A stretch of DNA of 64,000 nt from Pseudoglutamicibacter cumminsii (GCF_003143995.1 NZ_QFWG01000010.1:1-64000); one strand, 5' to 3'; shown: positions 35,289 to 45,127, counted from the stretch's first letter. The notes: a model not told the origin generated them from the sequence alone. Program-made: numbers and translations.

Positions 35289-38200
35289 ATGCGTACACAC
35301 AACAGCGAGGACAGGAAGAAACGCGCTCCGCGTTTGTCCTTGGCCGCGCTTTCAGTCATAGCCTTGACAGGCACGTCGCTTGCGGCTGTCCCTAGCTTCA
35401 TGGCCGCCTCACCGGCGTCGGCCGCTGAACTCTCCGGCGGCATCCGCGACAAGTCGGGCGCGGTAGAGAAGGACGCCCAGAAGGCCTCCGACCTGCCGGC
35501 CGGATCGTGTGTTGTTCAGGCAGACAACTCTCAGCAGGGCAGCCAGGCTGGTTTCAGCTGGTATACCTCTGAGCCGAGCGCGAGCAGCCCCAACAAAACC
35601 CGGTGGGGCTTGAGTGTGGCCTTCGATAACTCGAAGGACCGCACGTTTGCCGATTGGAACTTTACCAATTCAGGCCTCATGAGTGCGTACCTCGATGCGG
35701 GACAGATTCCCTCTATGAATGCTGGTCAGACCTTTGTTGATAAGAAGGTTACGCAAAAGGCTACAGAAGCCCTTGCGATCGATCGCAGTGGCCGACAAAC
35801 GAACCTTAACCTCAACGCTGAACTGACCGATGCGAAAGTCAAGCAGTTCGCTGAGGCCACTGCCGCGAACCCGGTACGTTACGCCTGGCAGGGCGACTAT
35901 AAGCAGGAAAACCCTCAAGGGCCAAGGGCCACCCAGGGGGGCAACGCATCGTTTGACGCCCTCGTGAACCCGTGGCCGAGCGAGAACATCGAATGTAACC
36001 CGATCACGGTCTCGTGGGAGAACTTCGAGAAGCACGTCATCGTCCCTGGCGCGGAAATCAAGGTCGGTAAGATCAACATCCCGGCTGTGACCGGCCAGGG
36101 CACGGATGATTCCATGTCCCGCATGGTCGTGGAGGCCTACGACGGCAACGGCAAGTTCATCGGCACCACCGACCCAGTGGCGTCTGGCGGCACCAAGAAC
36201 CTGCGCATCGACGAAACAACCGGCGAGATCTACTTCACCTGGCCTGAGTACCGCGGCACCGACCTGGCTACCGATAAGAACGTGAATTTCTCCGTTCTTG
36301 CGAAACCGCGTAGCGTAGACGAGCTCAAGGCTGCAGCTAAGAGCAACAATGAGTTTATTGAGCATGACGCAGCCTTCAACAGCTCCAACTCGCTGACCCG
36401 CTACAACAAGGCGAACGTCATCGACTCCAAGGCATTCTCCTTGGATGACACCGAGTACCACTCCCCGAAGTACGACAAGACGGACGCCACGATTATCTCC
36501 GGCGTCGATAGCGCTACCGGTCCGATTGCTACCGAGCCGCAGAAGGTCACCTTCACCCAGACCCCTGACCTGATCAAGGACCTGGCGAAGAAGAAGGCAG
36601 ACGGCGGTTACGAAGCCAAGGTCACCCTGGACGAGAAGTACGTCTACGAGGGCTGGACCGTCGAGATGGACGAGAACTACAACGTCACCGTCACCGCTCC
36701 AGAGGACCCGCGCCCAGGCACCTTCGCGCGCCCTGTGATCACGGTGGAGTACTCCAACGGTTCCACTGACAAGCTTGAACTCCTCGTAGTTGTTGACCCG
36801 AACAACACCCAGGTCACCGATCTGGTTCGCCCTGGTCTGACCAAGGGCAAGATCGGGGCTGACCTCACGGCCCAGGTGGGTACCAAGTCGATCATGAAGG
36901 GCTACAAGCCGGTTCACCCGGCGAAGTTTGAGATCGACGAGTCCACTGTGCCTGAGGGCTGGACCGTGACGGTCGACGAGACCGGCAAGGTCATCGCGAA
37001 GGCTGACGACACCGTGGCACCGGGCACGATCATCACTCCGAAGGTCAAGGCAACCTACCCTGACCAGACCACGGACGAGATTGAGGTCCAGTTCCAGGCG
37101 ATCGTGGAAATCAAGATCCCGACCTACGACACGGTGGCCGGCCAGCCGAACGCGAGCGTCAGCCTTACTCCTGAGATCCCGGAGCGCGGTCTGAGCGGTA
37201 ACACGACCGATGAGGCCCCGTCGCGCTACACCTTCGAGGACGGCACCAACCAGACCACCCTTACCAGCAAGGACGGTAAGACCTGGACCGTCTACGTTGA
37301 CGAGAAGACCGGTGAGATTACGACCACGATTCCGAAGGGTGCGCAGGAAGGCGACATCCTCAACGTTCCGGTCCAGGCTCACTACAGCGATGAAGGCAAG
37401 CAGAAGCCACAGACCGTCGTTGGCACCGTCGTCGTTATCAAGGGCGACATCAAGGCGAACTACAACGTTCAGACCACAGCTCCGGGCCAGGAAGTTAAGC
37501 ACCAGGTTGAGGACACGCCTGACGGCTCCACGTTCTCCTTCGGAAACAAGAATGGTAAGCCGGTTCTTTCTCAGGAAGTCAACGGCTGGAAGTACACCAT
37601 TGACCCGAAGACCGGTGAAGTTTCCTCCACCCCGCCGGCCGATGCTAAGCCGGGTGACAAGAACACCGTCACGGTGACCGTTAACGCTCCGGGTGGCTTG
37701 ACCACTCAGGCGCCTGTCACCACCGTGGTGAAGCTGACCAACGCCTGGGAAGCCGAACCGTCCTACCCGGTACAGACCGTGTACCCGGGCGAAACCGCAA
37801 CGCTGCCAGTTGCACTGGAGAAGCCAGACAACGTCAACGTCGCGGAGGAAAACCCATACAAGTTGGGTGAGATTCCTGCCGGCTGGAATGTCAGCATTGA
37901 CGACAATGGCCAGATCACCGCAACCGCACCTGAGGATGCGAAGCCAGGCGATCAGGTCAAGATTCCGGTTACTGTGACCTACGAGGACGGCTCTACGGAT
38001 ATCACCTATGCTGTGGTCAACGTCCTCGGAGTGCCTGAACGCGAGGTTCCGTTCAAGGTCGAGTACAAGTACGACGACACCATCCCTGCCGGCGAGTACA
38101 AGGTTGAGACCAAGGGCAAGCCTGGCAAGGAGAAGATGAAGAAGGACGGCACCTGGGAGCGCTCCGAAGAGCCTCAGAATGAGATCGTCGTCATCGGCAC

Positions 38201-39806
38201 CAAGCCTGCTGAGAGCGCCAAGGAAGTCACCTGGACGGTTCCGATCCCGTACCCGACCGAGGTTCGCGAGAACCCGGACCTGAAGCCTGGTGAAACCCGG
38301 GTTGTTCAGGAAGGTGAGAACGGCGAGAAGACCTTCACCGCTAAGTTCACCGCTTCGGGCGATCAGGCTGAGGTCGTCGAGGAAGAGACCACCAAGGAGC
38401 CTGTCAAGCGGATCGTCGAGTACGGCCCTGGCATTGCTCCGAGCGAGCTCGTGACCAAGATCGAGAAGCCGATTCCGTTCGAGACCAAGGTGATCTTCGA
38501 CGACACCCTCGAAGCCGGAAAGCAGGTTGTTGACCAGAAGGGTGAGGTTGGTACCGAGGTTGTGACCTCAACTCAGAAGCTCGTGGACGGCAAGCCTTCG
38601 GGCGACCCAGTCGTGACCTCTGAACGCACCAAGGAACCGACCGAGGAGATCATCCGCGTGGGCACCAAGTCCGAAGGCACTCACACCAGTGAGTACGTCA
38701 AGGACGTGCCATTCGAGACCGAGGTGATCTTCGACGACACGATGGAAGCCGGAAAGCAGGAGACTGTCCAGGAAGGCCAGCTTGGTAAGGACAAGGTCAC
38801 CACTACCCTGACCATCGAGAACTCGAAGGTTGTGGATTCCAAGACCGAAACCGTACGTGTGACCGAGCCGGTCAAGAAGATCATCAAGATCGGCACGAAG
38901 GGCAAGCCTGCCTCCACCGAGTTCGAATGGACTGAGAAGACTCCGTTCGAGACCGAGATTCGTGTGAACCCGGATCTGCAGCCTGGTGAAACCAAGGTTG
39001 TCCAGGAAGGTAAGCAGGGCGAGGTCAAGCACACCGTCAAGGTAAACGCCGAAAACGGTGAGATCACTACGGAGGACACCTCCGAGAAGATCAGCGACCC
39101 GGTCAAGCAGATCATTGAGGTTGGTCCGGCCAAGAACCAGACTGAGCTCACCGATAAGCACACCGAGAAGACCCCGTACGACACCGTCATCGAGTACGAC
39201 CCGAACCTCGAGGTCGGCAAGGTCGTTGAGGACCAGGCTGGCGCCTTCGGCGAGAAGGAAATCACCAAGACCTGGAAGCTCGAAAACGGCAAGCCAGTCG
39301 GCGATCCGGAAACATCCGAGAAGGTCGTGACGGAACCGCAGCCGCGCAAGCTGCGCGTAGGCACCAAGTGCAACTGCGAACAGCCAACCCCAGAACCATC
39401 TGAGGAACCGACGCCGGAGCCGTCTGAGGATCCAACCCCAGATCCTTCCGAGGAACCGACCCCAGAACCATCTGAGGACCCAACCCCGGACCCATCCGAG
39501 GAACCAACCCCGGCACCGTCGGAGGAACCTTCTGAGGATCCGTCGGAGGACCCAACCGAGGATCCAACGCCGGCGCCTTCCGAGGACCCAACCGAGGATC
39601 CAACCGGTGAGCCAGGTGAATCGCCTAGCGATAGCCCAAGCGCTCCGGGTGCAGACAACAACAAGCCTGCTCAGCCGCAGAAGCCTGGTACGCCGCCTCT
39701 GGCTCGTACGGGTGTCAACGCTGGCGGGGCGCTGGCTACGGTTGCTCTGATGATGCTCGGTGGCGTAAGCCTGCTGGCATTGCGTCGGCGTCCATCGCAG
39801 CGCTAA
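35289..39806 (+). CDS. large G5/Rib-like repeat surface protein with LARTG sorting signal
   Basis: A 1505-residue cell-wall-anchored adhesin-like protein. A signal peptide with a basic N-region (KKRAPRL) and cleavage near SPASA-A (about residue 45) is followed by a roughly 370-residue N-terminal domain I do not recognise. Next come four or five Rib/YPDG-like modules (about 410-915; each has GW-x-V-x-hydrophobic-D plus PGD/PGT loops). Six G5-type modules follow (about 918-1360; pattern PF-x-T-hydrophobic-x-DD-x-LEAGK ... EPVKxIIxxGTK). A Pro-Glu-rich wall-spanning stretch (about 1366-1441) precedes LARTG (1471-1475), a hydrophobic helix and RRRPSQR. LAxTG is the preference of class E sortases rather than LPxTG; no sortase is in the window. 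It is transcribed alone and ends at a strong terminator. Adhesion or biofilm function is inferred from architecture. Confidence 0.85.
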   Translation: MRTHNSEDRKKRAPRLSLAALSVIALTGTSLAAVPSFMAASPASAAELSGGIRDKSGAVEKDAQKASDLPAGSCVVQADNSQQGSQAGFSWYTSEPSASSPNKTRWGLSVAFDNSKDRTFADWNFTNSGLMSAYLDAGQIPSMNAGQTFVDKKVTQKATEALAIDRSGRQTNLNLNAELTDAKVKQFAEATAANPVRYAWQGDYKQENPQGPRATQGGNASFDALVNPWPSENIECNPITVSWENFEKHVIVPGAEIKVGKINIPAVTGQGTDDSMSRMVVEAYDGNGKFIGTTDPVASGGTKNLRIDETTGEIYFTWPEYRGTDLATDKNVNFSVLAKPRSVDELKAAAKSNNEFIEHDAAFNSSNSLTRYNKANVIDSKAFSLDDTEYHSPKYDKTDATIISGVDSATGPIATEPQKVTFTQTPDLIKDLAKKKADGGYEAKVTLDEKYVYEGWTVEMDENYNVTVTAPEDPRPGTFARPVITVEYSNGSTDKLELLVVVDPNNTQVTDLVRPGLTKGKIGADLTAQVGTKSIMKGYKPVHPAKFEIDESTVPEGWTVTVDETGKVIAKADDTVAPGTIITPKVKATYPDQTTDEIEVQFQAIVEIKIPTYDTVAGQPNASVSLTPEIPERGLSGNTTDEAPSRYTFEDGTNQTTLTSKDGKTWTVYVDEKTGEITTTIPKGAQEGDILNVPVQAHYSDEGKQKPQTVVGTVVVIKGDIKANYNVQTTAPGQEVKHQVEDTPDGSTFSFGNKNGKPVLSQEVNGWKYTIDPKTGEVSSTPPADAKPGDKNTVTVTVNAPGGLTTQAPVTTVVKLTNAWEAEPSYPVQTVYPGETATLPVALEKPDNVNVAEENPYKLGEIPAGWNVSIDDNGQITATAPEDAKPGDQVKIPVTVTYEDGSTDITYAVVNVLGVPEREVPFKVEYKYDDTIPAGEYKVETKGKPGKEKMKKDGTWERSEEPQNEIVVIGTKPAESAKEVTWTVPIPYPTEVRENPDLKPGETRVVQEGENGEKTFTAKFTASGDQAEVVEEETTKEPVKRIVEYGPGIAPSELVTKIEKPIPFETKVIFDDTLEAGKQVVDQKGEVGTEVVTSTQKLVDGKPSGDPVVTSERTKEPTEEIIRVGTKSEGTHTSEYVKDVPFETEVIFDDTMEAGKQETVQEGQLGKDKVTTTLTIENSKVVDSKTETVRVTEPVKKIIKIGTKGKPASTEFEWTEKTPFETEIRVNPDLQPGETKVVQEGKQGEVKHTVKVNAENGEITTEDTSEKISDPVKQIIEVGPAKNQTELTDKHTEKTPYDTVIEYDPNLEVGKVVEDQAGAFGEKEITKTWKLENGKPVGDPETSEKVVTEPQPRKLRVGTKCNCEQPTPEPSEEPTPEPSEDPTPDPSEEPTPEPSEDPTPDPSEEPTPAPSEEPSEDPSEDPTEDPTPAPSEDPTEDPTGEPGESPSDSPSAPGADNNKPAQPQKPGTPPLARTGVNAGGALATVALMMLGGVSLLALRRRPSQR
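39385..39612 (+). repeat. in-frame PTPEPSEE/DPTPDPSEE coding repeat
   Basis: Imperfect 8-codon units (PTPEPSEE, PTPDPSEE, PTPAPSEE and shorter PSEDP forms) make up the wall-spanning linker of the surface protein. The DNA copies vary in codons for the same residues (cca/ccg, gaa/gag), so selection acts on the protein pattern. Such tracts can vary in length between strains. Confidence 0.8.
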
Positions 39807-39856: not shown

Positions 39857-39894
39857 GTGGCGGGGATACAGGAGAAATCCTGTATCCCCGCCAC
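39857..39894. terminator. strong bidirectional terminator between surface protein and ABC operon
   Basis: A perfect 17-bp stem, GTGGCGGGGATACAGGA with its complement, has a GAAA tetraloop (39874-39877). AAAA precedes it and GTTTTAA follows on the plus strand, so it can work in both directions. It separates the plus-strand surface protein gene from the end of the minus-strand operon. Confidence 0.9.
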
Positions 39895-39932: not shown

Positions 39933-41846
39933 TTAGAGAGCGTTGCTTGGAGGCTGCTTGCTCGCAATAAAAGCCGGAACAACAGCAGACACAAGGCCAG
40001 CCACGACACCGAGGCCCAAACCTACCGGCACAAGCCACGGCTCAACCTGAGGCGTCCACCCCTGCGCGGCAGACACCACAACAACACCAATAACACCCGC
40101 GAGCGCACCCACTGCCCCACCGATGAAACCAATCAGCACGCCTTCGGTCACGAACCGCGCCGCAATACCCTTCCGGGTTGTTCCTAGAGCGCGGCGCAGA
40201 GCGATCTCCGGCGCACGCGACAGCACAGTCAAATACATCGACGTCGAAGCGCTCACAGCCGCAAGAATCAGCAAGGTGGCCGCCATGATGCCGACCAGCG
40301 CATCGAGATCCGTAGACACACCCATGCGGAGGTTCCGCAAATCAGCCACAGTTTGCACCCGATAGCTTCCCGGATCAGCCGCATCCAGCTGCATCGGCAC
40401 GGCCTCCGCCAGTGCGGCCGGGAAACCCTTCTCTGTGCGAATCAACAACTGAGGCTGCCCTAGATGCAGCTGTGGAGCCAAAGACAACGGGACCAACACC
40501 GCATTACTCAGCCCAGGGCGTCGTTCCCCCGTCGTGAAGGAATCAACGACGCTCAAACGATGGTCGCCCACCACAATCGAGCCGTCGGCGCCACTGCTGG
40601 GGAGGTTCAGGGCTTGCAGAGCGTCAGGCCCCACAACCGCTACCGAATTAACGGCCGGTATCCCGAAAAGATCCGCTGTCTGCTTCTTCCCTAGCGTGAG
40701 GTCTTGGGCCGCGAAAAACTCGTCATCCACCGCGATGATCTGCAGTCCCCCGCCTGAGTTCACGTCGCCGGGTTCTAAACGGTATAAGCCAGTCGACGAG
40801 GCGGGTAGCTGAATCATGCGCGTCACCCGCTGCACGTGCGGAAGCTGCTGAATCCGTTCCTGATCGCGCGTGAGGCTCTCCTCGAGTTCTTCCCGCTCGT
40901 AGTACGGGGTGGTAACCCACACTTCGTCGAACGCGGCGGCTTCGAGGCGCTCGTTGATCTGGACTGCGGCGGTCTGGCTGATCCCCACGGAAGCGATCAG
41001 CCCGCCGATGCCTAACGCGAACGCCAACACCAGGAACGCTGTGCGGATCCCGCGGAGCAAAACCTCCGTGAGAGATTCGGCGAGCACGTCAGCCACGCGG
41101 GTACGTAACGGCCCCCGCGGCGGCTTCTCAAGAGCTACGCTCGCGGCGCTCGGCACAGCAGCAGAGACGCCGGTGTCTTCCGCGATCCTGCCGTCAACGA
41201 TGCGGATCACGCGGTGGGCGCGGGCCGCAACCTCTTCGTCGTGGGTGATGACGATCAGCGTCGCGCCGTGCTCACGCGCTCGTTCAAGGTCGGCGAGCAC
41301 CGCCATCCCCGATGCGGTGTCGAGCGCACCAGTTGGCTCGTCGGCGAGCACCAGCTCGGGTTGCGATGCCAACGCGCGCGCCACAGCGAGCCGCTGCCTC
41401 TCACCGCCGGACAGCACCCCCGCTTTATACGTGGCGCGGTCGCCGATGCCGAGGCTGTTCATCGCTTCGAACGCGATCTCGGAGCGTTCCTGGAGCGGTA
41501 CAGCGTGCGGAACCATCCCGAGGGAGGCGTTCGACAACGCGTCCAGGTGCGGCAGCACGTGCGAGGCCTGGAATACGAAGCCGATACTGTCTGCCCGGAG
41601 CCTATCGCGGTCCTTCTCCGTCGCTTTGGTGAGGTCCTGACCGGCGAAGACGTACGAGCCCTTGTTCGGGGCGTCGAGCAAACCGAGCAGTTGCAGGAGC
41701 GTGCTCTTGCCCGCACCGGAGGGACCCACTATGGCGACGTATTCGCCAGCGTAAATGTCCAGGTCGACGTCGAAGACACCGGCGGTGCTGTCTGCACCGT
41801 ATTGGCGAGTTACCCCGCGCATCTCAATGAGTTTGCGGCGTTCCAT
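39933..41846 (-). CDS. MacB-like ABC exporter: ATPase fused to FtsX-type permease
   Basis: A 637-residue fusion like MacB. An N-terminal ABC ATPase has Walker A GPSGAGKST (residues 41-49), signature LSGGERQRLAVARAL and Walker B LVLADEPTGALD. From about residue 265 an FtsX/MacB permease follows, with one membrane segment (AFLVLALGIGG region), a large extracytoplasmic domain of about 230 residues, and three C-terminal segments including GIMAATLLILAAVSASTSMYL. Such proteins use ATP to drive periplasmic or extracellular export of peptides, often with an adaptor. Here the start codon overlaps the stop of the adaptor gene by one base (TGATG). It is the last gene of a four-gene operon with a candidate secreted substrate as its first gene. 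Confidence 0.9.
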   Translation of the reverse strand: MERRKLIEMRGVTRQYGADSTAGVFDVDLDIYAGEYVAIVGPSGAGKSTLLQLLGLLDAPNKGSYVFAGQDLTKATEKDRDRLRADSIGFVFQASHVLPHLDALSNASLGMVPHAVPLQERSEIAFEAMNSLGIGDRATYKAGVLSGGERQRLAVARALASQPELVLADEPTGALDTASGMAVLADLERAREHGATLIVITHDEEVAARAHRVIRIVDGRIAEDTGVSAAVPSAASVALEKPPRGPLRTRVADVLAESLTEVLLRGIRTAFLVLAFALGIGGLIASVGISQTAAVQINERLEAAAFDEVWVTTPYYEREELEESLTRDQERIQQLPHVQRVTRMIQLPASSTGLYRLEPGDVNSGGGLQIIAVDDEFFAAQDLTLGKKQTADLFGIPAVNSVAVVGPDALQALNLPSSGADGSIVVGDHRLSVVDSFTTGERRPGLSNAVLVPLSLAPQLHLGQPQLLIRTEKGFPAALAEAVPMQLDAADPGSYRVQTVADLRNLRMGVSTDLDALVGIMAATLLILAAVSASTSMYLTVLSRAPEIALRRALGTTRKGIAARFVTEGVLIGFIGGAVGALAGVIGVVVVSAAQGWTPQVEPWLVPVGLGLGVVAGLVSAVVPAFIASKQPPSNAL

Positions 41847-43069
41847 CAGAGCACCACGGTGTCACCAACAGCAAGGTCATCGGATTCCACGGCCGCCCAT
41901 CCGGCGGCGGTTTTCCCCACGGTGACCTTGACTCGACGAGGCTCCTCCTTATCGTTTGAGCCCTGCTTGCTGGAACCTTGCCCGGTTGTGCCGCGCGACC
42001 CCGGTGCCGCGACGAGCACATAGTCGCCGTCAGCATCGTGCCGCAGAGCGGTCACTGGTACGGCTTTCTGTGGTTTAGCTTTCGTGGTGAGCTCTACACG
42101 AACCTGAGTTCCCGTCTGGACTTTCTCAAACGCCTCGTCCTTGGTTGCAAAGCTCACTTGGTGGCCGGGCGCGCGGCTGTCCGTGCCGCCTTCGAATTCG
42201 CCGACGTTCTCAACGGTTCCTGCGAACGTGGCAGCACCGGCGATGATCCGAACTTCTGTACCTTTCTTCAACTGCTGGGCATCAGCCACGTTTACGTAGG
42301 CTTTGATGGTGCGACTACCCACGCGAATTTTGGCGAACGGTTGCTCAGGCCCCAAGGTGGATGATACGCCGGCAACGCTCAGCACAGTCCCGCTCTTGCC
42401 ACCGATGGAGGCGAAAGCCGCCACTGGAATGTAAGGCTGGGTCTGCGGCGCGGCTGGCTGGTCGCTTCCGTCTTCCTCGGTAGCGGACTCGTCCGAGGGC
42501 CCGCTCGGTGAGGAGTCGGTCTCGCGCTGCGGCAGGGCGTAGCCGGCTTCCCGGAACAGTGCCGCTACGGCGTTGATCGTGGTTGCATCGACAACACCGG
42601 ACGCTGGAACGTTGTAGCCGGTCGTTTCTAGCGCTTTCTGGAAGGCAATGACGTCGTCGCCTTTATCGCCAGCGGCGAGGTCGCGGTAGAGGGGAAGTTG
42701 CCCCGACACGGCGAACACTGGCGTGCCCGCTACTGAGCCCAGCAGTTGGCCGGGGACAACGTCCTTACCTTTCTTCAGCGCCTGTTTGGTGACGGTGGGG
42801 GTTTCCGGCAGGACGGTCGGCAGAACATCCCGTGTTTTGCCCTCCCCTACGGCTCCCAGAATGACTGTGTCAGGGACGATGGGACGCTCTTCGACCACTG
42901 CGGTGGCTTGAACTTTCTCGTCCGTGACCGTGGCAACCGAGCTTTTCGGTGCCGTCAAGGTGCCGATGAAGAAAGCGGCGACCACTGCTCCGATCACTAC
43001 GACAGTGATGACGAGGGTCCGCACGGGGAATGCGACCCGCGAAAGATGTGGTGCGCCCGCTTTCTTCAT
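41846..43069 (-). CDS. membrane-fusion (HlyD/MacA-like) adaptor with a peptidoglycan-binding domain
   Basis: A 407-residue protein with an N-terminal membrane anchor (VRTLVITVVVIGAVVAAFFIGTL) and an extracytoplasmic region. At about residues 130-175 it has a PG_binding_1 module (GDKGDDVIAFQKALETTGYN ... DATTINAVAALFREAGY). A Ser/Glu/Asp-rich linker and then beta-barrel/lipoyl-like segments follow (ASIGGKSGTVLSVAG, IKAYVNVADAQQLKKGTEVRI). It is a MacA-type partner for the adjacent ABC exporter. The wall-binding module would let a Gram-positive adaptor dock in peptidoglycan in place of an outer-membrane channel. An AAAGGTG ribosome binding site precedes the ATG. Confidence 0.85.
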   Translation of the reverse strand: MKKAGAPHLSRVAFPVRTLVITVVVIGAVVAAFFIGTLTAPKSSVATVTDEKVQATAVVEERPIVPDTVILGAVGEGKTRDVLPTVLPETPTVTKQALKKGKDVVPGQLLGSVAGTPVFAVSGQLPLYRDLAAGDKGDDVIAFQKALETTGYNVPASGVVDATTINAVAALFREAGYALPQRETDSSPSGPSDESATEEDGSDQPAAPQTQPYIPVAAFASIGGKSGTVLSVAGVSSTLGPEQPFAKIRVGSRTIKAYVNVADAQQLKKGTEVRIIAGAATFAGTVENVGEFEGGTDSRAPGHQVSFATKDEAFEKVQTGTQVRVELTTKAKPQKAVPVTALRHDADGDYVLVAAPGSRGTTGQGSSKQGSNDKEEPRRVKVTVGKTAAGWAAVESDDLAVGDTVVL

Positions 43070-43099
43070 GCGTTAACACCTTTCTACTGAGGGACCTAA

Positions 43100-43978
43100 T
43101 TATCCGTTCTGTGCAATGTATTCACGGGCTGCGGACAAGACGCGGTCCTTATCTTCTTTAGCTGGTTTAAGTTCAGCCTCATGCTTATCGATGAGTGGCT
43201 GTTGATAGGAAGCAACCAGGTCGCCGAGGCGTTGGCTTGTTGACGTTTGGTTGTTGCAACGGGCTTCAATGCTGGCGAGTCGGATGCCTTCTTGTGTTGT
43301 CTGCGACCCTTTGGACTCGAGAAGCTCCGTGGACTCATCCGAGGCCCACGTGTCCTTGCTCTTCGGGGCTGTAAGCCCAGCCTCGGTGAGGCACTGAGCC
43401 CATTCTTTATGGACTCGCTCCCATTCTTCGTCCTTCGCGGCAGCGTTGAGAGCCTGCGTGCTCAGCTCGTCAGCCCTATCAGAGGATGCTACGTTGTAAT
43501 CCCTGAGGACTTCGGTATCCGGGTCTGTCTCGAACCGCGTCTGGCATTCTTCATACCCCGTTGTCCAGGCTTCGCCACCTGCGGCTTCTTCCTGTTCCTC
43601 CAGCGCGGTTACACTGCTAGGTTTTGTCCCCCAGCCGTAGTCAGCCGCGAGTTGCTCATCCCAAATACCGAACGTGCGGTCATCAAGAACCGCATCTTCA
43701 GGCCCGGTAGCCGTGTACGTGAGGCCCTTCTCAGCCATGCACTTAGACGTGTAGACCCTTTTGGCTTGATCCATCAACGCTTGATCGGCGGGGTCATCAA
43801 CTACCAGATAGGCCGATAACGGGGTCAGGATTTGTGCGCTCTCGCGGTCAAGCTTAGCCCGCGCGCTGGTGTCTCGCCCCTCACTACTGGCATTCGATCC
43901 GCTACACGCCGCAAGTGAAACCCCGAGAAAAGCAGCGGCGAAACCGGCCAGAGCCCTTTTTCCATGTTTCATAGTCAC
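43100..43978 (-). CDS. secreted lipoprotein with spaced Cys motifs, exporter-operon partner
   Basis: A 292-residue lipoprotein of unknown function. The signal peptide ends in the lipobox LAAC (LGVSLAAC). The mature part is acidic and mostly helical, with four further cysteines in short motifs: KCMAEKGLTY, ECQTRF, QCLTEAGL and RCNNQT. Repeated C-M-x-x-x-G/C-L-x-x-x-G units are typical of lipoproteins encoded with MacB-like exporters in actinobacteria, although I know of no defined role. It lies between the crystallin-like gene (9-nt gap) and the adaptor gene (30-nt gap). Two starts are possible, GTG at 43978 or ATG at 43972; both follow AAGGCGG. It could be an immunity protein or a substrate-capture factor; this is inference. 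Confidence 0.8.
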   Translation of the reverse strand: MTMKHGKRALAGFAAAFLGVSLAACSGSNASSEGRDTSARAKLDRESAQILTPLSAYLVVDDPADQALMDQAKRVYTSKCMAEKGLTYTATGPEDAVLDDRTFGIWDEQLAADYGWGTKPSSVTALEEQEEAAGGEAWTTGYEECQTRFETDPDTEVLRDYNVASSDRADELSTQALNAAAKDEEWERVHKEWAQCLTEAGLTAPKSKDTWASDESTELLESKGSQTTQEGIRLASIEARCNNQTSTSQRLGDLVASYQQPLIDKHEAELKPAKEDKDRVLSAAREYIAQNG

Positions 43979-43987
43979 ATGTCCGCC

Positions 43988-44332
43988 TTATCGAACAGCT
44001 GAGATCCGGTCACTCCAGGTTTCACCTAGGTGCAGGTTGGTGCGAAGTGAACGCAGGTCACTGTAATCGTGTCTGAGCGGAGCGGTTCGCCCATAACAGC
44101 CAGCGTTTTCGCACATCTGACGCGACTTGCCCTTCTTGATCGAGCTCGCGCGGTCGTTAGCCCACTTAGGAAGATTTCCAGAGTTCCAGGTTCCCATTTC
44201 ACCGGAATAGTTGATGTGGTCATACAAAACAGCGGCATGCGAAGCCTGCATGCTCGATCCCAGCGCGACCAGGCTCAAGGCACCAGCAGCGAGTCCTCGC
44301 TTGAAGAACTTCGATGAAACTTTTTTAGACAT
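43988..44332 (-). CDS. small secreted beta-gamma-crystallin-like protein
   Basis: A 114-residue exported protein, first gene of the exporter operon. The basic N-terminus and hydrophobic core end at ASHA-A (about residue 33), a Sec signal peptide. The mature part of about 81 residues is basic. It opens with a Greek-key hallmark, Tyr37-x6-Gly44 (YDHINYSG), followed by NDRASS at residues 59-64, which fits the N/D-N/D-x-x-S/T-S calcium-binding motif of microbial beta-gamma-crystallins. A second half ends WSDRISAVR, a degenerate repeat of that motif. Two cysteines (74 and 79, MCENAGC) may form a disulfide. It also resembles family I36 inhibitors and small bacteriocin-like proteins. AAGGGGG precedes the ATG. 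Function is unknown; export substrate of the downstream transporter is inference. Confidence 0.75.
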   Translation of the reverse strand: MSKKVSSKFFKRGLAAGALSLVALGSSMQASHAAVLYDHINYSGEMGTWNSGNLPKWANDRASSIKKGKSRQMCENAGCYGRTAPLRHDYSDLRSLRTNLHLGETWSDRISAVR

Positions 44333-44409
44333 ACTTATCCCCCTTTTGGAGAAATAAAGCTATTAGAAATCACCTCGTATATTTATGGAAACATCCACGA
44401 GATGAGATA

Positions 44410-44438
44410 ACAGTAGGATGAGGTTCTCTGTGAGTCAA
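44410..44438 (-). promoter_or_regulatory. promoter of the crystallin/exporter operon
   Basis: On the minus strand TTGACT (44433-44438) is followed after exactly 17 nt by TACTGT (44410-44415), a good -35 and a TANNNT-type actinobacterial -10. Transcription would start near 44403, giving a leader of about 70 nt before the crystallin-like gene. The surrounding 100 nt are clearly more AT-rich than the rest of the window. Confidence 0.6.
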
Positions 44439-44537: not shown

Positions 44538-44572
44538 AAGGTGGGTTCGGAACCGTGTTCCGAACCCACCTT
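44538..44572. terminator. hairpin closing the DUF3040 transcript
   Basis: A perfect 15-bp stem, AAGGTGGGTTCGGAA (44538-44552) with TTCCGAACCCACCTT (44558-44572), has a 5-nt loop. It lies downstream of the DUF3040 gene on the minus strand and upstream of the exporter promoter, so it insulates the operon from dinB-side transcription. Confidence 0.8.
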
Positions 44573-44620: not shown

Positions 44621-45007
44621 CTATCCCTGGTTGTGGCGGTTATCCCATTCTTTTTCGAGCCGCGCCATGAAACTATCGCCGCGGCGAGCATTCGAACTAT
44701 TCGAGCTCGTCGTAGTAACAACCTGCTCGGTCTTCCTCATAGCGAGGGCGGCACCCACAACCATGATCCCGAACCCGACAATACCCAAGATGACCGTCGC
44801 GATCAGTCCAGCGCTAATCGCGATACCCGAAAGGAGAACACCCAAGCCAGCGAACGCGATCAACGCACCCAACGCAATATTGCGGGTGCTCAGCTTGTTC
44901 TGCGGCGTCTGCTCAACGCGACGCATCGTGCTCGAAAACTGTGGATCTGCGTGGAGTTGCTTCTCCATCTCAGCGAGCATACGGCGCTCACTCTCAGATA
45001 AACCCAC
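44621..45007 (-). CDS. DUF3040 membrane protein
   Basis: A small membrane protein of unknown function that lies next to dinB and mraZ in many actinobacteria. From the GTG at 45007 it starts MGLSESERRMLAEMEKQL, the family's usual N-terminus, and AAGGGGG lies just upstream. An in-frame ATG at 45022 is the alternative. A helix rich in charged residues is followed by two hydrophobic segments (NIALGALIAFAGLGVLLSGIA and LIATVILGIVGFGIMVVGAAL), and a polar C-terminus ends in ARLEKEWDNRHNQ. In this genome about 10 kb separates it from mraZ. Confidence 0.85.
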   Translation of the reverse strand: MGLSESERRMLAEMEKQLHADPQFSSTMRRVEQTPQNKLSTRNIALGALIAFAGLGVLLSGIAISAGLIATVILGIVGFGIMVVGAALAMRKTEQVVTTTSSNSSNARRGDSFMARLEKEWDNRHNQG

Positions 45008-45127
45008 GGCCTCCCCCTTCATCGGACCATTCCTGAACTCCTATTGTACTCAGGCGGGCCCACACAGTTCGAGCCGGTTCCTCAAACACCGAAACGCTTT
45101 ACCCCGCGTTCACCGAGCGGTCGCTTC

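Follow-up and report, generated by a model that had tools for sequence, protein, structure and literature searches.

Positions 39,933 to 44,438 of the window analysed here, a 64,000-nucleotide stretch (NZ_QFWG01000010.1:1-64000) of the 2.09 Mb genome of Pseudoglutamicibacter cumminsii (Micrococcaceae), hold a four-gene operon that, as we read it from sequence, encodes a secreted antagonist together with its self-protection system, with a probability that we put at about 0.5. The four open reading frames all lie on the minus strand (44332–39933) and are separated by 9, 30 and −1 nt, as the initial annotation of this stretch had described; in order, they encode a secreted protein of betagamma-crystallin/I36-like type (SP; gene 1, 43988–44332, 114 residues, 81 when mature), a lipoprotein (LP; gene 2, 43100–43978, 292 residues), an adaptor of MacA/HlyD type (AD; gene 3, 41846–43069, 407 residues) and a MacB-type ATPase-permease (MB; gene 4, 39933–41846, 637 residues). 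The order SP-LP-AD-MB is found in at least nine genera; it is common within the Micrococcaceae, including Pseudoglutamicibacter, Rothia and Micrococcus, and occurs also in other Micrococcales and in the Actinomycetaceae. SP and LP do therefore recur together with AD-MB, the operon is a conserved unit as had been proposed, and chance clustering of the four genes is ruled out by the same arrangement in many genera. The operon is one layout among a class-wide family.

We favour the combination of antagonist and immunity because it accounts for a Sec-secreted SP beside a presumably cognate surface lipoprotein and a MacB-type pump, for the tandem pairs and the plasmid carriage of these genes, and for the loss of SP from loci that keep the rest. 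SP would leave the cell by the Sec pathway, fold as a Ca-binding betagamma-crystallin-like domain and attack the envelope of nearby bacteria, probably relatives; LP would be the cognate immunity lipoprotein, capturing SP outside the membrane ahead of its target. AD-MB would serve as a MacB-type protective pump that moves SP, or an SP-target complex, away from the membrane zone, and AD, through its wall-binding module, would anchor the assembly in the peptidoglycan, where other such pumps dock to an outer-membrane channel. In this scheme the toxicity of SP, its binding to LP, the substrate of the pump and the direction of pumping are each something that we infer.

The secreted protein: family, loss and covariation

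Judged by its sequence, SP is a secreted betagamma-crystallin/I36-type protein, so that its first description as crystallin-like is borne out. The Sec signal cleaves between ASHA and AVLYD, leaving the 81 mature residues that had been predicted, and signals of the same type are carried by other members of the family. The mature protein has an isoelectric point (pI) of 9.4 and is basic, as stated initially; basic charge as a trait of the family had to be dropped, the family median pI being 7.6. Compared with betagamma-crystallins of known structure, the SP family profile finds clostrillin best (E = 1.1e-14), with further matches to protein S, spherulin 3a and others; the structures of SMPI and SKLP are not among the matches listed, and a closer link to these two is not established. 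The Ca-site motif N/D-N/D-x-x-S/T-S occurs in SP once as a strict match (NDRASS, 44141–44158, minus strand) and once in a degenerate form (SDRISA, 43997–44014, minus strand), at which many relatives have NDRISS; 60 of 78 family members have at least one copy and 31 have two. A comparison with NCBIfam, lactococcin 972 families included, gave no match at E ≤ 1, on which ground SP as a lactococcin 972 homologue was rejected.

A protein encoded at another locus (L199:5481–6350) combines an I36/crystallin-like domain with a second one, at the C-terminus, whose similarity to Peptidase_M15_3 is weak (PF08291, E = 0.001, below the cut-off); this protein may be a wall-acting enzyme.

The I36 relationship suggests another function, in which SP is a secreted peptidase inhibitor of I36/SMPI type, displayed or exported by the products of the other genes, and shields the cell from foreign proteases. 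Among 20 SP relatives, 16 match the I36 family (PF03995) at E ≤ 0.01, and the cassette on a Leifsonia plasmid carries the annotation "peptidase inhibitor family I36". SP itself, however, scores 15.5 bits against a Pfam cut-off of 21.1 and so falls outside the family by that measure, and a family name is not equal to a proven function. Moreover, inhibition would leave unexplained why SP keeps company with a lipoprotein and a MacB pump, and why these outlive it. We regard this explanation as improbable.

SP is, on comparison of related loci, the expendable part of the operon. P. albus (G041) has lost it through a deletion of 358 nt whose ends lie at a pair of 9-bp repeats; in a sister of P. albus (G065) it is disrupted by a frameshift and a nonsense codon; between these two genomes the ratio of nonsynonymous to synonymous substitution (dN/dS) is 0.17 for LP, 0.18 for AD and 0.09 for MB, which is purifying selection despite the loss of SP. 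In Micrococcus, SP is truncated to a single motif in two genomes (G188, G044) and lacks its signal in a third (G165). That LP-AD-MB outlasts SP in the sister lineage fits the behaviour expected of immunity genes, and the SP-negative P. albus lineage offers a natural test case.

Over 22 complete cassettes, we compared the distance matrices of SP, LP, AD and MB. The distances of SP and LP remain correlated after AD and MB have been removed (r = 0.32, p = 0.0002), while SP and AD do not covary (r = −0.06) and SP and MB do so weakly (r = 0.16, p = 0.06). LP is the specific covarying partner of SP and evolutionarily the closest to it; as to binding, covariation within one operon is suggestive and no proof.

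The lipoprotein, the adaptor and the transporter

Gene 2 encodes a lipoprotein with the lipobox LAAC at residues 22–25, whose cysteine is C25; the gene starts either at a GTG (43978) or at an ATG (43972). Three further cysteines, C80, C196 and C241, are invariant in the LP family, a four-cysteine family, and C145 is nearly so. Pfam gives no credible match for LP, nor for any of 30 family members; NCBIfam gives none for LP, and the LP profile retrieves no sequence from the PDB. The structure model is almost entirely helical, with a predicted local distance difference test score (pLDDT) of 89. Against known folds its best Foldseek match has E = 0.77 and its best VIA-align match Z = 4.7 (rmsd 16.7 over 156 aligned residues), a value that is uninformative for a helical protein, and these null comparisons do not make the fold of LP new.

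AD has an N-terminal transmembrane helix followed by the lipoyl and beta-barrel domains of a MacA/HlyD adaptor, and its model (pLDDT 79) matches BesA (E = 1e-12), MacA (5nik, E = 5e-9) and pneumococcal Spr0693 (5xu0, E = 1e-6). Within the lipoyl domain, at residues of about 130–175 (42560–42661, minus strand), lies the PG_binding_1-like module for which the annotation had called. It scores 17 bits in AD itself, below the cut-off of 23, and PG_binding_1 is matched in 6 of 9 AD relatives. The module sits between the two lipoyl half-motifs, precisely where MacA has its alpha-hairpin, so that AD lacks a hairpin that could reach TolC and has the PG_binding_1-like module in that position. MB carries ABC_tran, MacB_PCD and FtsX in a single chain, each above its Pfam cut-off, and is hence a MacB-type protein and the ATPase-permease fusion that had been read from the sequence.

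The initial annotation called this transporter an exporter. If it were the secretion system of SP, one would understand the tight packing of the four genes, and a separate locus of the same genome points in a similar direction, as the gene for another I36 protein precedes those for an ABC ATPase and for a large permease of FtsX-like type. But SP family members have Sec-type signals, and many SP-LP pairs have no AD-MB nearby. Export ranks last among the rival explanations, given the Sec signal of SP and its occurrence in many genomes without AD-MB, and the annotation's "exporter", if taken as the secretion route, is accordingly unlikely. The same two facts, the signal of SP and the frequent lack of an exporter nearby, make it more likely, as far as gene content can indicate, that the AD-MB pump protects rather than secretes.

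The separate locus (76996–80537 of contig C2 in the host genome, G000; 5997–9538 of L195) lies outside the window. Its first gene encodes the other secreted protein of I36/crystallin-like type (PF03995, E = 1e-12); the ABC ATPase and the permease, of 816 residues, come next, with neither LP nor an adaptor. A similar layout is seen in L212 and in L214, in the latter interrupted by a contig end.

Distribution, arrays and borders of the operon

Among 197 genomes of the family, LP is detected in 30; for the order the figure is 83 among 396 genomes, and for the class 76 among 395. In the rest of the class, SP and LP mostly form a pair without AD-MB (within the ~5 kb inspected). In the 396 genomes of the order, at least 19 of 49 SP-profile matches lie directly upstream of an LP match on the same strand, a lower bound, as further LP genes were later detected (L197, L201). 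Loci were chosen partly through LP or SP matches, so these fractions are not population estimates.

Several loci multiply the first two genes before a single transporter set. At an actinomycetacean locus (L117) five copies of LP and two of SP stand before one AD-MB set, a Rothia locus (L143) reads LP-SP-LP-SP-LP-AD-MB, and a Jonesia locus (L148) has an array of five LP genes before one AD-MB set. By analogy, such arrays of SP-LP pairs or of LP genes before one AD-MB resemble toxin/immunity arrays. In a Micrococcus locus (L072:7000–7520) an LP fragment is fused to the 3′ portion of SP, apparently a scar left when a former tandem SP-LP array recombined. The genes are also carried on plasmids: a Leifsonia shinshuensis plasmid has the complete set, for which the annotation goes no further than an "I36 peptidase inhibitor", a pair of hypotheticals and an ABC protein, and a Streptomyces plasmid has an 87-residue open reading frame of unknown family, then LP. 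At some loci the place of SP before LP-AD-MB is taken by different small secreted proteins that have no Pfam match. Two of these (L130:4953–5282 and L192:4676–4993) look SH3-like by eye, with no Pfam result, and another (L126:5163–5597) is a secreted protein of 144 residues and unknown family.

Some of the evidence weighs against an antagonist. SP has a dN/dS of 0.13 between the two closest species (a single species pair), which is purifying and not diversifying; many SP homologues have neither LP nor a transporter nearby; the dispensability of SP may have causes unrelated to toxicity; and each of the four Pseudoglutamicibacter genomes in the sample retains LP-AD-MB, as would also fit a housekeeping role in the envelope. 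Such a role can be stated as a full alternative, in which LP-AD-MB is a wall-anchored, FtsEX-like mechanotransmission machine and SP, without any killing, a ligand or structural protein that associates with the wall in a Ca-dependent way and is positioned or sensed by the machine. Wall remodelling and sensing are known roles of MacB/FtsX-type proteins (PMC5985334), AD carries a predicted peptidoglycan-binding module, and the SH3-like proteins in the place of SP suggest wall binding. Set against this are the repeated loss or breakage of SP with the remainder kept, the existence of SP-LP without AD-MB, and a patchy distribution with tandem pairs and plasmid carriage that would be unusual for housekeeping genes. 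Envelope maintenance is on balance unlikely, though less so than the roles of inhibitor or export cargo.

Should SP be an antagonist, the consequences would extend beyond this operon. More tentatively than for the operon itself, we suggest that betagamma-crystallin-fold proteins might constitute a widespread actinobacterial class of bacteriocins, with a four-cysteine immunity lipoprotein, often with a wall-anchored MacB pump, and with a small-protein slot that other folds could refill. Many secreted actinobacterial proteins now named "I36 peptidase inhibitor" or "hypothetical" would then belong to a new bacteriocin class, whose recognisable immunity partner would make it possible to mine the genomes of actinobacteria from skin, mouth and soil, and there would be a clear model for the role of Gram-positive MacA-like adaptors, which work without an outer membrane.

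The operon is well delimited on its 3′ side, where a perfect 17-bp hairpin with a T-run (39857–39894, minus strand) forms a strong terminator. Beyond it, the gene for a repetitive surface protein of 1505 residues (35289–39806, plus strand) faces the operon; its tail is rich in Pro, Ser and Glu and carries a PLARTG sorting signal. Hairpins beyond both ends had been noted, and both are present; the upstream one (44538–44572, minus strand) belongs to the terminator-like end of a DUF3040 gene (44621–45022) and marks the 5′ border. The promoter-like sequence TTGACT-N17-TACTGT is likewise present and is kept in the closest relative. Its first hexamer lies at 44433–44438 and its second at 44410–44415 (minus strand, 17-nt spacer); the second is weak, with three of six consensus positions, and a consensus promoter scan did not return the sequence. 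A PADLOC scan for defence systems gave no credible match for the operon, and identity as a defence system was dropped for that reason.

Comparison with known systems

A look through the open-access literature for crystallin/I36 proteins with ABC genes gave nothing relevant. SP shares the fold family and the Ca-site motifs of the betagamma-crystallins, of I36 (SMPI) and of SKLP-type proteins, and its relatives match I36; it differs from these proteins in that its gene lies in one operon with those for LP and a MacB pump. With MacAB-TolC the operon has in common the MacB domains of MB and the likeness of the AD model to MacA; it differs in the PG_binding_1-like module in place of the adaptor hairpin and in its Gram-positive host, which has no outer membrane, so that no exit duct of the TolC type is expected. 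Lantibiotic immunity, in which the lipoprotein LanI and the ABC transporter LanFEG act as a joint pair, is comparable in that combination; in the operon, LP matches no known family, the transporter is of MacB type, and what is produced is a crystallin-like protein without modification.

The Bacillus pump YknWXYZ is MacA/MacB-like and protects against the secreted SDP toxin (PMC4887032). It resembles the operon in having a MacA-like adaptor and a MacB-type transporter in a Gram-positive bacterium, and is unlike it in that there is no lipoprotein, the toxin is encoded elsewhere, and ATPase and permease are separate. We know of no PG_binding_1 module in YknX. This adaptor is cited as binding peptidoglycan (in PMC5985334), a precedent for a peptidoglycan-binding adaptor in a Gram-positive bacterium. 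The annotation knew of no described system of such composition, and none of the annotated homologues of the whole set that we saw has an assigned function. The overall interpretation given to the stretch at the outset is, in sum, partly supported.

In layout, the clusters of lactococcin 972 (Lcn972) and streptococcin B are similar to the operon. The gene of Lcn972 is followed by the ABC genes orf2-orf3, thought to provide immunity (PMC4055356), and some pneumococcal strains are without functional streptococcin B (PMC11796350). As in the operon, a small Sec-secreted, beta-rich protein precedes ABC genes and natural strains lack the functional product. Unlike these bacteriocins, SP is crystallin-like and lies outside the lactococcin 972 families, and the operon adds a lipoprotein and a wall-binding adaptor.

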